Of a stretch of DNA of 44,773 nt, positions 1,657 through 34,326 are shown piece by piece. Position 1 is the first letter of the stretch. Each line of letters starts with the position of its first letter. The position numbers were made by a program, and so were the translations under genes. This stretch comes from Chloroflexota bacterium (GTDB taxonomy: Bacteria > Chloroflexota > Dehalococcoidia > CAUJGQ01). Location: positions 1 to 44,773 of the forward strand of contig CAUJGQ010000072.1 in assembly GCA_963170165.1 (NCBI GenBank), in the 5' to 3' direction. A model generated the notes under the pieces. The model worked only from the letters and a program-made list of their open reading frames with translations. It was not told the DNA's origin and did not search any database.

Positions 1657-1700
1657 CCGGGTTTCCCCCGATCAAGCGTTGCCCTCCGGCTCCCTAGACT
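1657..1700 (+). promoter_or_regulatory. Flagellar box plus -10 upstream of fliF
   Basis: The box CCGGGTTTCCCCCGAT at 1657-1672 is followed after exactly 22 bases by TAGACT at 1695-1700, 51 bases before the fliF start. No TTGACA-like -35 is present where it would be expected (1673-1678). The box matches five others in this window with the same 22-base spacing, so I read it as an activator site centred near -42. Confidence 0.6.
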
Positions 1701-14098: not shown

Positions 14099-14211
14099 AT
14101 CCCCGTGGATGGTGGGGATACGTTCATCGTGAAGTAGGGAAATCTACCGAACGACCCGGCAGCAACGGCACGAGACGATAGGGTCACGAAGACGCAAGGA
14201 GCATAGGTCCC
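14099..14211 (+). other. Structured leader between flgD and the hook gene
   Basis: This 113-base gap is unusually long inside a tight operon and can fold. ATCCCC at 14099-14104 pairs with GGGGAT at 14114-14119; GTAG at 14134-14137 with CTAC at 14144-14147; and GACCC at 14153-14157 with GGGTC at 14181-14185. AAGGAG at 14196-14201 is the hook gene's ribosome binding site. It could be an attenuator, processing site or regulated leader; no known riboswitch class fits. Confidence 0.35.
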
Positions 14212-15024
14212 ATGTTGCGTGCATTCTCCTCAGCCATCTCGGGTATGCGCACCCAGATGACCTTCATGGATACCGTTGCCAACAACATCGCCAACGTGAA
14301 CACTACTGCCTTCAAGACGACCCGTGCGCGCTTTTCCGACATGCTGTATCAAACGCTGGGGCAGGGGGTGGCGAGTGCCGGCGACCTGGGCAGCGTTAAC
14401 CCGATTCAGGTGGGCCTAGGTGTCAAGCTGGCCGCGATCGATACCAACATGGGTCAGGGTGCGTTGCGTGCCACCGGCGTCCCGCTTGACCTGGCGATTG
14501 AGGGAAACGGATTCTTCGTCGTCTCGCCCGATGGTGGGACGACCAAGTTCTACACACGCGACGGCTCCTTCTCGATTGACTCCAATGGTGACCTGATCAA
14601 CGCCTCCAGCGGGATGAAGGTTCTCGATATCGCCGGCTCGCCAATCAACGTCCCGCCGGGCACGTATGCCTCTATCAGCATCACCGCGACCGGCCAGATC
14701 CGCGGCGTGCCGCCGGATGGCAGCGCCCCGGTCGACCTGCAACAGCTCGGTGTGACGACCTTTGCCAATCCGGCGGGCCTGGAGAAGCTGGGTGACAACC
14801 TGTGGGCAGCGTCTGGCGCGTCGGGCACGCCGGTGGATGGACCGGGCGCCGACACCAGCCGGGCCAGCGGCTCGATCCGGTCAGGCGTGCTGGAAGGTTC
14901 GAACGTGGACCTGGCGCAGGAGTTCTCCAACATGATCATGGCGCAGCGCAGTTTCCAGGCGAACTCGCGCGTCATCTCGAACCTTGACGAGATCCTCCAG
15001 GATCTGGTGAACCTCAAGCGGTAG
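14212..15024 (+). CDS. flgE: Flagellar hook protein FlgE (FlgE/FlgG family)
   Basis: An axial protein of the hook/distal-rod family, 270 aa. The N-terminus has the rod/hook signature (FMDTVANNIANVNTTAFKTT) and the FlgE/FlgG core GNGFFVVSPDGGTTKFYTRDG near residue 100. The C-terminus, SNVDLAQEFSNMIMAQRSFQ then ANSRVISNLDEILQDLVNLK, ends in the form typical of hook proteins. By length it is closer to the rod protein FlgG (about 260 aa), but its place after fliK and flgD favours the hook. It is the only member of this family in the window, so the distal-rod partner must lie elsewhere or this protein serves both roles. A strong hairpin follows. Confidence 0.85.
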   Translation: MLRAFSSAISGMRTQMTFMDTVANNIANVNTTAFKTTRARFSDMLYQTLGQGVASAGDLGSVNPIQVGLGVKLAAIDTNMGQGALRATGVPLDLAIEGNGFFVVSPDGGTTKFYTRDGSFSIDSNGDLINASSGMKVLDIAGSPINVPPGTYASISITATGQIRGVPPDGSAPVDLQQLGVTTFANPAGLEKLGDNLWAASGASGTPVDGPGADTSRASGSIRSGVLEGSNVDLAQEFSNMIMAQRSFQANSRVISNLDEILQDLVNLKR

Positions 15025-22642: not shown

Positions 22643-22686
22643 AGGGTGGCACGCCGCTCTCGATACCCGAATCGGGAAACCCCGTA
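22643..22686 (-). promoter_or_regulatory. Flagellar box plus -10 upstream of fliO
   Basis: On the minus strand the box TACGGGGTTTCCCGAT (22686-22671) is followed after exactly 22 bases by CACCCT (22648-22643), 52 bases before fliO. The -10 is weak, keeping only the A at position 2 and the T at position 6. The box lies between the divergent fliO and cupin genes. Confidence 0.45.
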
Positions 22687-23221: not shown

Positions 23222-23602
23222 TTAGTGGGTGGGCTGGGCGAAGCGGGAGACGCAGGCGATCAGGTCGTCGATGTCGAACGGCTTGGCGATGAACCCCGCG
23301 ACGCGATGTTTCTCGGCCTCAGCGCGGGCATGCTGCCCAGCTGTCATGAAGACGAGGGGTACACCAAGCCCGCGCTCGTGTACCAGCTGCGTGACTTCCC
23401 AACCGGTCATTACTGGCATTTGCAGGTCGAGCAGTACCACACAGGGCGCGTGCGTGGTGATGTGGGTGATCGCCTCTTGGCCGTTGGTGACGGCTGCTAC
23501 CTGGAACCCCTCGTCTTGGAGGATGCTGGCGATGGCCTGACGAATCGCGGGGTCATCGTCCACGACGAGCACGTGGCTGCTGTGTGCGGGCAGAACGGTC
23601 AT
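23222..23602 (-). CDS. Stand-alone CheY-like response regulator
   Basis: A 126-aa receiver-only protein. All phosphorylation residues are intact: acidic cluster Asp15-17 (VVDDDP), phosphoacceptor Asp59 (LLDLQMP), Thr87 (FMTAG) and Lys107 (AKPF). It differs from the CheY encoded at 38151, having a longer N-terminus and the tail FAQPTH. It lies 101 bases downstream of fliN on the same strand, so it may be read from the mot/fliM unit or from its own promoter. Its place beside the switch genes suggests it could act on FliM or FliN, or be a second CheY, but no partner can be shown. The start at 23602 omits a doubtful 35-residue upstream extension. Confidence 0.85.
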   Translation of the reverse strand: MTVLPAHSSHVLVVDDDPAIRQAIASILQDEGFQVAAVTNGQEAITHITTHAPCVVLLDLQMPVMTGWEVTQLVHERGLGVPLVFMTAGQHARAEAEKHRVAGFIAKPFDIDDLIACVSRFAQPTH

Positions 23603-23703
23603 CGGACCGGCACACCTCGCTGGATCATCGTCTGCGTCCTCGCGCAGGATAACGTGTGTGCGGCCCGTCCGCCTACCACGCGGTGCCAGCATAGCCGGGG
23701 TTC

Positions 23704-24726
23704 TCACGCCAGCGCCGTTGCCCGCTGGCGTGGGGCAATGATTTCGGTCACGCGGACGCCGAAATTCTCCTCAATGACCACAACCTCACCACGGGCGATC
23801 AGCCGGTCGTTGATGACGATGTCGACCGGCTCGCCCGCCAGACGGTCCAGCTCGACCACGGAGCCGGGGCTGAGGCCCAACACTTCTTCCACCGTCATCT
23901 GCGTGGAACCGAGTTCGACGCGGACATTCAGCGCCACATCCAGAATGAGATCGACACCACGGTCGGTGCGTGGGGCAGAGGCGGCCGGTTCGAGCTGGCC
24001 AAAGCTCACCGGGTTGACGGCGATGGCGGGCCTGGCCGGGGGCAGGGGGGCCGCCGTGGGGGGAGGTGTGACCTGATCGGGCGTCTGCCGCCGGGCAGCC
24101 TGCTTGGCCGCCAGCCCCGCCGCCCGCTCGGCGGCCGTGGGCGTCCCGGTTACGCCGGAAGCGCCGCCCGCTGCCAGCGCAGCGACCAGCCCGCCATTGA
24201 CCACCACGACGACCGGCATCAGCAATCCGCCGGGGCGCAGCAGTATCCCAGCGTAGGCCACCGGCTCAGTCGCACCGAGCTGCGCCAGCACCGCTGCCGG
24301 CGAGCTGTTCGCCTCCTCGAGGCTGGCGCCAGAGACGCGCACCGAAGGCATCAGCGTCTCCGTGGTGAGCGCTCCGGCGAGCGCTCCGGTCAATGCCTCG
24401 GCGCCCTCGCTGAACTCGGCCAGCAACCGCAACTGGTTGTCGGGCTTCGACAGCTCGCTGTCCGGGATCTCTTCCAGGCCGAACAGCTTTTCACCGTCGG
24501 CGGCGAGCATGATCACCGACATGTTTGCGGGCTCAACCCGACCAAGGCGCACCTCCATCTCGAGATGGACGTGAACACCCGGGCCGAGGTCTGCCACCAG
24601 TTGTGCCGGCGGCCCCGGCACCAGTTCCGGGAGGTCGGTTGCACCGCCGAACGTCTCACCAATGGCAACCGGTAGCGCCGCGCGCAGGCGTTCCCCCAAG
24701 CGTACGATCTCGTCAGTTGTTGCCAT
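23704..24726 (-). CDS. fliN: Flagellar motor switch protein FliN/FliY
   Basis: C-ring switch protein. At 340 aa it is a long FliN, organised like FliY. The C-terminal SPOA domain is clear (about residues 263-330: ILDVALNVRVELGSTQMTVE, then EVLGLSPGSVVELDRLAGEP, VDIVINDRLIARGEVVVIEE). The N-terminal 190 residues resemble a CheC-like module (LLAEFSEGAEALTGALAGAL), but I see no E..N phosphatase pair, so it is probably not catalytic. A Pro/Ala-rich linker joins them. The start at 24726 (MATTDE) has AGGGGG upstream and overlaps the fliM end by 14 bases, a sign of coupled translation. Confidence 0.92.
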   Translation of the reverse strand: MATTDEIVRLGERLRAALPVAIGETFGGATDLPELVPGPPAQLVADLGPGVHVHLEMEVRLGRVEPANMSVIMLAADGEKLFGLEEIPDSELSKPDNQLRLLAEFSEGAEALTGALAGALTTETLMPSVRVSGASLEEANSSPAAVLAQLGATEPVAYAGILLRPGGLLMPVVVVVNGGLVAALAAGGASGVTGTPTAAERAAGLAAKQAARRQTPDQVTPPPTAAPLPPARPAIAVNPVSFGQLEPAASAPRTDRGVDLILDVALNVRVELGSTQMTVEEVLGLSPGSVVELDRLAGEPVDIVINDRLIARGEVVVIEENFGVRVTEIIAPRQRATALA

Positions 24727-28016: not shown

Positions 28017-28241
28017 TCAGACGACGCTGCGGTGAATCTGGAGCGGCACCGGCGCGCTGGGATGATGGATCGCCTGGCGGTACTCGAGGACCAGCTCGGC
28101 CACCTGCGCCGCGCCCTCCCGCACGACATATGCCTGACCGTTCGTCAACAGAATGTGGGTGTCCGGCACGGCCTCGATCATCTGGATGTGCTCCGCGTTG
28201 ATGTAGAACCGGGAGCCGTTCAGCCGGGTCACTTCGATCAC
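28017..28241 (-). CDS. flbD: FlbD family flagellar protein
   Basis: A 74-aa protein of the FlbD/YlzI family, small proteins found before motA in many Gram-positive and thermophilic bacteria; the precise function is unsettled. The signature is present: IEVTRLNGSRFYINAEHIQM followed by EAVPDTHILLTNGQAYVVRE and a C-terminal helix. The start is GTG at 28241: GGAG lies eight bases ahead of it, while the in-frame GTG at 28250 would be too close. It is the first gene of the flbD-motA-motB-fliL-fliM-fliN unit, directly behind a flagellar box. Confidence 0.85.
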   Translation of the reverse strand: MIEVTRLNGSRFYINAEHIQMIEAVPDTHILLTNGQAYVVREGAAQVAELVLEYRQAIHHPSAPVPLQIHRSVV

Positions 28242-28268: not shown

Positions 28269-28312
28269 AGGCTATCCGGGCAGTTCGGCGGCTCCCATTG
28301 GGGTAATCCCCG
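28269..28312 (-). promoter_or_regulatory. Flagellar box plus -10 upstream of flbD-motAB
   Basis: On the minus strand the box CGGGGATTACCCCAAT (28312-28297) is followed after exactly 22 bases by TAGCCT (28274-28269), 27 bases before the flbD GTG. The box is almost a perfect palindrome, GGGG-ATTA-CCCC. It lies between the terminator of the regulator gene and flbD, where an independent promoter is needed. Confidence 0.65.
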
Positions 28313-28365: not shown

Positions 28366-28406
28366 GCAAACCCCCATCCCCGCGCCGCACGGGGATGGGG
28401 GTTTGC
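28366..28406 (-). terminator. Strong hairpin terminator after the response regulator
   Basis: Perfect 17-bp arms (28366-28382 and 28390-28406) enclose a 7-base loop, 25 bases beyond the stop of the minus-strand regulator gene. The outer pairs are A/T, but no long T-run follows. Confidence 0.85.
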
Positions 28407-28430
28407 CGGAGGAGGGAACCACAACCGCGA

Positions 28431-29177
28431 TTACCGGCCGCCGGCCATGCCGATGTCGGTGTCGGTCTCTACGAAGATCAGGCCCTTGCGGATGGCGTAG
28501 CGGATCAGTTCGGCACTGCCACGCACCCCGAGTTTCTGGACGATGTGCTCTTTGTGCGCTTCCACCGTCTTGACGCTGATAAACAGCCGCTCGGCGATGG
28601 CGCGATTGGTGTAGCCTTCGGCGATCAGCTGGAGCACCTCGCGCTCCCGCGCCGAAAGCGTTGCCTCGCGACCGCCCCGGCCCTCACTGGCCAGCAGGTA
28701 GCTGCGCAGCCGGTCGCCCTCGGCGAGCGACTGGGACAAGTAGGTGTTGGACTGGCTGACGGTGCGGATAGCGAGCAGCAGCTCGTCCGAGGAGGATGAC
28801 TTGAGCACGTATCCCGACGCGCCCGCCTTCAGCGCAGAGCGAACCTGATCCTCGTGGCCGTAGCCAGACAGGACGAGCACCTTGACCTTGGGCATCCGCT
28901 TGCGAATCACCGCCGTCGCCTCGATGCCATTGAGGCCCGGCATGGCGGTGTCCATCAGCACGACATCTGGCTTGAGCTGCTCGGCCTGGTCTATCGCCTG
29001 CCGCCCGTCCGACGCCTCGCCGATGACCTCAACCTCACCGTTCATTTCCAGCAGCAGGCGGAGCGTATCCCGCAGCACCGTGTGATCATCAACAATCAGC
29101 ACCCGGATGCTCTTGAAACCAAGGCGTCGATTCGCGCCGCTGGGGGTGGCAGTCATGGGCGAGGTCACAGTCTGCAT
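28431..29177 (-). CDS. NarL/LuxR-family response regulator
   Basis: A two-domain transcription factor of 248 aa. The receiver domain (about residues 24-140) has the acidic pair in IVDDH, phosphoacceptor Asp76 (LMDTAMP), and Lys126 (YVLKSS). The C-terminal LuxR-type helix-turn-helix (about 180-240) reads LSAREREVLQLIAEGYTNRA, IAERLFISVKTVEAHKEHIV, KLGVRG. The family binds inverted repeats, often centred near -42. The start at 29177 has GGAGA upstream and drops a 31-residue upstream frame that overlaps the promoter. No histidine kinase other than CheA is in the window. It is the only DNA-binding regulator among the motility genes, and its own promoter carries the flagellar box, so it is my candidate for the regulator of the locus. 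Confidence 0.93.
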   Translation of the reverse strand: MQTVTSPMTATPSGANRRLGFKSIRVLIVDDHTVLRDTLRLLLEMNGEVEVIGEASDGRQAIDQAEQLKPDVVLMDTAMPGLNGIEATAVIRKRMPKVKVLVLSGYGHEDQVRSALKAGASGYVLKSSSSDELLLAIRTVSQSNTYLSQSLAEGDRLRSYLLASEGRGGREATLSAREREVLQLIAEGYTNRAIAERLFISVKTVEAHKEHIVQKLGVRGSAELIRYAIRKGLIFVETDTDIGMAGGR

Positions 29178-29244
29178 TGGTGTTCTCCGCGCTGACCCGC
29201 CGGATAAATCGTGGTTCCGGTCGGTAGGGCTGTTCGCGAGTCCT

Positions 29245-29288
29245 ATGTTCGCGGCCGGTGGCAATTCCATATATTGGGGAAAACCCGC
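29245..29288 (-). promoter_or_regulatory. Flagellar box plus -10 upstream of the NarL-type regulator
   Basis: On the minus strand the box GCGGGTTTTCCCCAAT (29288-29273) is followed after exactly 22 bases by GAACAT (29250-29245), 67 bases before the start. The -10 is weak, but keeps A at position 2 and T at position 6. If real, the gene may control itself. Confidence 0.45.
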
Positions 29289-34025: not shown

Positions 34026-34326
34026 GCCCTGCGCTCCGCCGGATCGCTGTGCTGACCTCACGCTACGCGTGCGTGGTGGCGCTCCCCATCGGGGGATTCC
34101 CCATCGACCGATTATGCCTTCCCGATTCGGCTGCGCCGGTTCCCGGTGGCTGATTCCGCCGGTGTGTCGATACCGGAGGCGTAGCTGCGCCGTGGGCGGC
34201 GTCGCCACCGCGCACCATGCGGTTCACCCCTACAGGCCAGGGTGCATCGGCTCGATACCCAGGCAGACGCACCGGCGTTGGGCAGGGAAGGCCGTAGACG
34301 CAGCAGAGCGAGGAGATCGAGGGGCC
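34026..34326. other. Divergent intergenic region, transglycosylase and cheW
   Basis: These 301 bases carry no gene. They include the flagellar box and its -10 (34060-34103) on the minus strand. On the plus strand a poor copy of the box (TGCGGTTCACCCCTAC near 34218-34233) is seen, but no -10 at the expected place, so the cheW promoter is not defined. GAGG shortly before 34327 serves translation of cheW. Confidence 0.65.
34060..34103 (-). promoter_or_regulatory. Flagellar box plus -10 upstream of the transglycosylase
   Basis: On the minus strand the box TGGGGAATCCCCCGAT (34103-34088) is followed after exactly 22 bases by TAGCGT (34065-34060), 34 bases before the transglycosylase ATG. It is one of the clearest of the six copies. 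Confidence 0.65.

Follow-up and report, generated by a model that had tools for sequence, protein, structure and literature searches.

The window analysed here, meaning the whole stretch of 44,773 nucleotides of contig CAUJGQ010000072.1 (assembly GCA_963170165.1, Chloroflexota, Dehalococcoidia), contains a flagellar and chemotaxis island with fliF, fliG, fliI, flgB, flgC, fliO-R, flhB and che genes. Inside this island, an open reading frame on the reverse strand (28431-29270) encodes a response regulator (RR) of the NarL/FixJ type. A Pfam search identified a receiver domain (PF00072, E 4e-29) and, at the C-terminal end, a GerE/LuxR helix-turn-helix domain (PF00196, E 9e-22). The receiver keeps the phospho-acceptor D107 as well as D61, D62 and K157, and this Asp and Lys equipment together with the LuxR-type helix-turn-helix places the protein in the NarL/FixJ family. 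VraR and NarL are its top sequence matches in the PDB. Compared with NCBIfam equivalogs (NarL, UvrY/GacA, EvgA, UhpA, FixJ and others), the RR stayed below the cut-off of each one listed, and the best of them, MctR (NF052445), scored 197 bits where 300 would be needed. The gene probably starts at 29177 rather than at 29270, where the longest frame begins, or at 29288, because the box and promoter described below would fall inside the longer frame, a Shine-Dalgarno-like GGAG precedes the ATG at 29177, and orthologues begin at the matching position. The gene would then span 28431..29177 on the reverse strand and encode 248 residues. A first-pass annotation, made from the letters of this DNA, had put a NarL/LuxR-type regulator at 28431-29288; its identity is borne out by both domains, and its start is more likely the one given here.

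The RR gene lies upstream of flbD-motA-motB-fliL-fliM-fliN on the same strand. The leading gene of this box-headed operon, flbD (28017..28241, reverse strand), encodes a small motility protein of the FlbD/SwrD type (PF06289, E 4e-26), and a CheY-like receiver protein (23222-23707) follows fliN in the same gene run. A strong hairpin (28367..28407, reverse strand, fold -41.7 kcal/mol, z -5.7) separates the RR gene from flbD. It is a probable terminator of the RR transcript, and thus the RR gene and the flbD operon are probably two separate transcription units. An Rfam search gave no hits, and therefore no known RNA family was recognised. Another contig of this genome, C131, carries further motility genes, namely flhA, flhF, flgK, flgL, fliW, a flagellin gene and fliA, which codes for a FliA/WhiG-type sigma factor.

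Among the window proteins scanned, the RR is the sole DNA-binding regulator among the motility genes, as the first-pass annotation had stated; FlhD and FlhC were not found in this set, nor were histidine kinases besides CheA. The same annotation had seen no sigma-54, FleQ or FlrA-type activator in the window, and this holds for the whole genome, where the PF00158 matches are weak and partial (best E 5e-7) and include no true sigma-54 activator. The AAA+ domain of sigma-54 activators, the hallmark of FleQ and FlrA, is absent from the RR protein.

A box was found directly upstream of several of these genes. On the reverse strand, GGGTTTTCCCCAAT (29273..29286) lies 5' of the corrected RR start, in agreement with the earlier claim of a box in the gene's own upstream region, and is a candidate own-promoter operator, orthologous RR genes being boxed too. 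It is followed by a candidate -10 element, TAGGAC (29240..29245, reverse strand), whose assignment is uncertain, as it stands 41 nt from the box start against the usual 35-37. Ahead of flbD-motAB-fliLMN lies GGGATTACCCCAAT (28297..28310, reverse strand), at the same place as in related flbD promoters, with a candidate -10 TAGCCT (28269..28274, reverse strand) 36 nt from the box start. The box GGGTTTCCCCCGAT (1659..1672, forward strand) and TAGACT (1695-1700, forward strand) precede fliF, which starts at 1752, and GGGAATCCCCCGAT (34088..34101, reverse strand) and TAGCGT (34060-34065, reverse strand) precede the SLT/cheW genes (SLT start 34025). Six boxes had been proposed originally. These four are strong; the one 5' of fliO-P-Q-R-flhB, GGGGTTTCCCGATT (22670..22683, reverse strand), is degenerate and fails the strict pattern, and that 5' of an FlgE/F/G-type gene (flgG) at 14212, AGGGAAATCTACCGAACG (approximately 14134..14151, forward strand), is a weak, doubtful box-like stretch missed by the motif scan. 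Beyond the window, flhA and the fliA-proximal gene each have a degenerate box upstream. We do not claim a second spacing class at 41-42 nt (RR, flgG, flhA, fliO), which would consist of four weak cases.

The box is rare in the genome. In exact-pattern scans, GGGNWWNCCCCRAT matched eight times in 4.41 Mb, four times inside the 45-kb window that makes up 1% of the genome, and the reversed-pattern control gave 0 matches. All four window matches are directly 5' of motility genes or of the RR gene (fliF, flbD, RR and SLT). When the -10 pattern was added, six matches remained genome-wide, three of them in the window, with 0 in the control. The concentration of boxes in the window is more than chance. 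Box matches on contigs C11, C25, C67 and C129 have no clear motility gene beside them and are left as chance or unassigned; the one on C129 falls within a coding sequence that has cysteine motifs of the Fe-S type. A generic repeat search of the window missed the boxes and returned chance GC-rich repeats.

Alignment of 37 sites gives the motif GGG-N4-CCC(C/T)(G/A)AT followed by TANNNT, the first T of which usually lies 35-37 nt beyond the initial G of the box. In RR promoters the left arm is lengthened to ATNAGGG, giving a 20-bp dyad, TATCAGGG-N4-CCCTGATA, and in most orthologous RR promoters TAGACT stands at 35. Provided that TANNNT is the -10 element, the dyad centre falls at about -42.5 to -44.5, so that the inverted repeat near -42 expected for a LuxR/NarL protein is indeed present, centred at ~-43. 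The aligned promoters contain no conserved -35, and a box at ~-43 would occupy the position of a class-II activator. Further GGG triplets occur upstream of the boxes, at -22 in 32 of 45 sites and at -44 in 17 of 45, over a background mean of 4.5 per three-offset window; these counts are inflated by related promoters, and the pattern is seen in promoters of unrelated genes too. In the genome studied here, the -22 repeat is found at the SLT and flhA sites only. A period of ~22 bp, or two helical turns, is what stacked dimers would need.

Several comparative results connect the box with the RR. The RR-flbD-motAB gene order is conserved in nine related Chloroflexota loci and also in genomes G004, G023, G044 and G064, and in many of the related genomes the RR gene stands at the head of the flagellar cluster. 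With a motif trained on non-RR promoters only (flbD, fliF, fliP and SLT), a box was detected 5' of 21 of the 31 RR genes of the clade and of none of 66 other NarL-type RR genes (p 4e-14, a nominal value because close relatives do not contribute independent upstream regions); the other ten genes of the clade stay below every box threshold. The boxes lie ~140 to 520 nt before the start of the aligned protein match and occur across deep branches, namely that of G023 and the present genome, that of G069, G084 and G099, and Tepidiforma. A first motif, which included some RR promoters in its training, marked 23 boxed genes, all in one supported clade. The recognition helix of the clade reads TVEAHK.H, with K240 in 28 and H242 in 30 of the 31 RRs, as against R in 63 and N in 37 of the 66 other NarL-type RRs at these two positions.

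The spacing between box and -10 follows the regulator as well. In a sample of 100 genomes of the class, 19 of 21 matches to the box with its -10 in RR-bearing genomes have a spacing of 36-37, compared with 30 of 79 in RR-lacking genomes, where the distribution is flat over 33 to 38 (uniformity p 0.34). The contrast has p 1.4e-5, or 5.5e-4 with the present genome left out, and the genomes counted as RR-bearing include G031, where the RR forms a long branch, as well as G004, G044 and G064 of family f4, which were called by synteny. The first-pass annotation had proposed checking whether the box is present only where an orthologue exists; this spacing test comes close to that check, and its outcome speaks for the link, as the preferred 36-37 appears only in clade-bearing genomes. 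In G008, a flagellated genome without the RR clade, a strong box with TAGACT (L235 5116) precedes the gene of a TPR-like protein within a cluster related to cytochromes and may be an exception to the association of box and RR. Taken together, synteny, own-promoter boxes, spacing and recognition helix single out the RR as the best candidate for box binding, and very probably it is the box-binding factor.

We therefore propose the following scheme, which as a whole we consider likely on sequence grounds. An RR dimer would bind the inverted repeat, with the core GGG-N4-CCC(C/T)(G/A)AT, and, placed ~43 bp before the transcription start at most promoters, would recruit RNA polymerase by class-II activation to promoters with a TANNNT -10 and no good -35. 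Further dimers could be stacked on the upstream half-sites ~22 bp apart, and phosphorylation of the receiver may play a part. As targets the scheme predicts the promoters of fliF, flbD-motAB-fliLMN, SLT and the RR gene itself, and probably also fliO-flhB, flhA and the fliA region, with FliA as the presumed next tier below the RR.

The first-pass annotation had regarded the protein as the flagellar master activator. Synteny and the boxes across the clade speak for a probable box-binding regulator; sole or universal control is not supported, since a FliA/WhiG sigma is present in the genome, which leaves the RR as at most an upper tier, and four flagellated genomes do not contain the clade. The suggestion that the RR may control itself survives as a predicted link to its own promoter, in line with the boxed orthologues; with a -10 spacing of 41 instead of 35-37 in the present genome, this autoregulation may be positive or negative here.

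The box might instead be bound by another regulator, for example a paralogous NarL-type RR encoded on contig C150, with the linked RR merely adjoining the operon. This paralogue belongs to the clade and is 55-56% identical to the RR, and the recognition helices of the two are similar (TVEAHRSHI in the paralogue). However, it has neither an upstream box nor K240, and flagellar synteny, own-promoter boxes and co-occurrence all favour the linked RR, so we regard this reading as unlikely. It is also conceivable that the RR binds the box and acts as a repressor or autorepressor, motility being switched on once the RR leaves. In favour of this, the RR gene has a -10-like TAGCCT further upstream, and transcription directed by it would begin shortly before the box; the candidate -10 that follows the box is, moreover, unusually spaced, at 41. 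The other promoters, however, look activator-like in their centre at ~-43, fixed spacing, missing -35 and phased upstream sites, and the prevailing TAGACT in the orthologous RR promoters also argues against repression, which we judge very improbable.

The box could, finally, be a promoter element of a flagellar sigma factor of the FliA/WhiG type, the right arm (CCGATAA) serving as a sigma-28 -10. The sigma-28 -10 consensus is GCCGATAA, to which the right arm CCC(C/T)GATA is similar, and such a sigma factor is present in the genome. Against this, no conserved -35 is found ~15 nt upstream of the right arm, and this reading would not account for the dyad, for the phasing of the GGG repeats or for the TANNNT at a fixed distance downstream. 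Moreover, G005, G008 and G073 have a FliA-type sigma but lack the RR clade, and scanning of their flagellar loci gave no strong box. We rejected the right arm as a sigma-28 -10 because of the missing -35 and the unexplained dyad and phasing, and consider this the least probable of the alternatives.

The RR predicted to bind the box is not confined to flagellated genomes. Among the 100 class genomes, FlhA is present in 12, the RR clade in 15 and both in eight, so that the clade occurs in 8 of 12 genomes with FlhA and 7 of 88 without it, a co-occurrence that speaks for the link of the RR with flagella. Within family f33, both are present in G033, G059 and G076 and both are absent from G091. The flagellated genomes without the clade are G003 (54% complete), G005, G008 and G073, and another regulator therefore probably serves there. 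Conversely, the RR is found without FlhA in G001, G017, G051, G069, G084 and G099 (96-99% complete); the assemblies are mostly metagenome-assembled, and the absence of FlhA is read from near-complete, unfinished genomes. In this FlhA-less set, the RR gene is boxed in G069, G084 and G099, with weaker boxes in G051 and G001. The RR-box pair thus occurs also in several near-complete genomes without FlhA.

Within this FlhA-less set, csrA is a neighbour of the RR gene in G001, G069 and G099, and two of these genomes, G001 and G099, also have a FliA/WhiG sigma gene close to it (L213 9427-10637, L226 6124-9667 and L219 6249-8070). A box in G051 precedes the gene of an Ig-like surface protein, which is followed by sortase-like genes. 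Similar membrane proteins with no Pfam match are boxed in G051 (L218 4844) and G017 (L223 5824). In the f4 genomes G044 (L232 6255) and G064 (L233 1790), a box stands before genes for similar beta-propeller-like secreted proteins. Tepidiforma loci, which have no flagellar gene within 10 kb, were dropped as flagella-less examples, as their genomes contain FlhA; the non-flagellate set consists of G-handle genomes without FlhA only. In G100 (L018, Tepidiforma flava), flhA is split into several frame-broken pieces (contig C1 1670596-1672533), possibly by assembly frameshifts, although a flagellum has been reported for this strain (PMC10284905).

We tentatively suggest, at somewhat less than even confidence, that the RR, box, CsrA and FliA/WhiG sigma form a flagellar control kit that may have outlived the flagellum and been rewired to another surface programme. 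Flagella are reported to be ancestral in Dehalococcoidia and later lost (PMC10284905), which makes retention and rewiring of the RR-box pair a natural reading; the regulon of the flagella-less genomes is thinly supported.

VraR, NarL and DevR/DosR share the two-domain architecture of the RR and are its closest solved sequences, and none is a flagellar regulator. In the DevR site, GGG and CCC are further apart than in the box described here. VisN/VisR of rhizobia are LuxR-type proteins at the top of the flagellar cascade, the place proposed here for the RR, but they form a heterodimer without receiver domains and belong to Alphaproteobacteria. The first-pass annotation had seen a different control logic in this lineage. 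It is not unprecedented, since DegU of Listeria monocytogenes is a NarL-type activator of flagellar genes (PMC9263151). Like the RR, DegU belongs to the NarL family. It comes without its kinase gene, much as the window proteins scanned include no histidine kinase other than CheA, and it binds a palindromic operator as a dimer to switch on flagellar genes. For the RR, such activation is predicted from the operator-like dyad and its placement, and the likeness would be one of function and not of descent. DegU differs in lineage and operator, binds independently of phosphorylation, and shares control in Listeria with MogR/GmaR. In Actinobacteria, a FliA/WhiG-family sigma controls non-flagellar processes such as sporulation and type IV pili (PMC8325347), a precedent that differs in concerning the sigma factor WhiG and its anti-sigma RsiG and not a response regulator.

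The Thermomicrobium roseum genome paper names FliA and FlgM (PMC2615216). In the open-licence literature, we found no account of such a flagellar transcription factor, or of flagellar gene control, in Chloroflexota. New features appear to be the lineage, the operator and its phased array, the tie to the regulator's own promoter and the retention without flagellar genes. The analysis thus yields a candidate regulator, a precise operator and a predicted regulon for the flagella of Chloroflexota, and the prediction that the box follows the RR has already passed comparative tests. The RR-box pair also offers a way to trace the fate of a motility regulator after the loss of flagellar genes.
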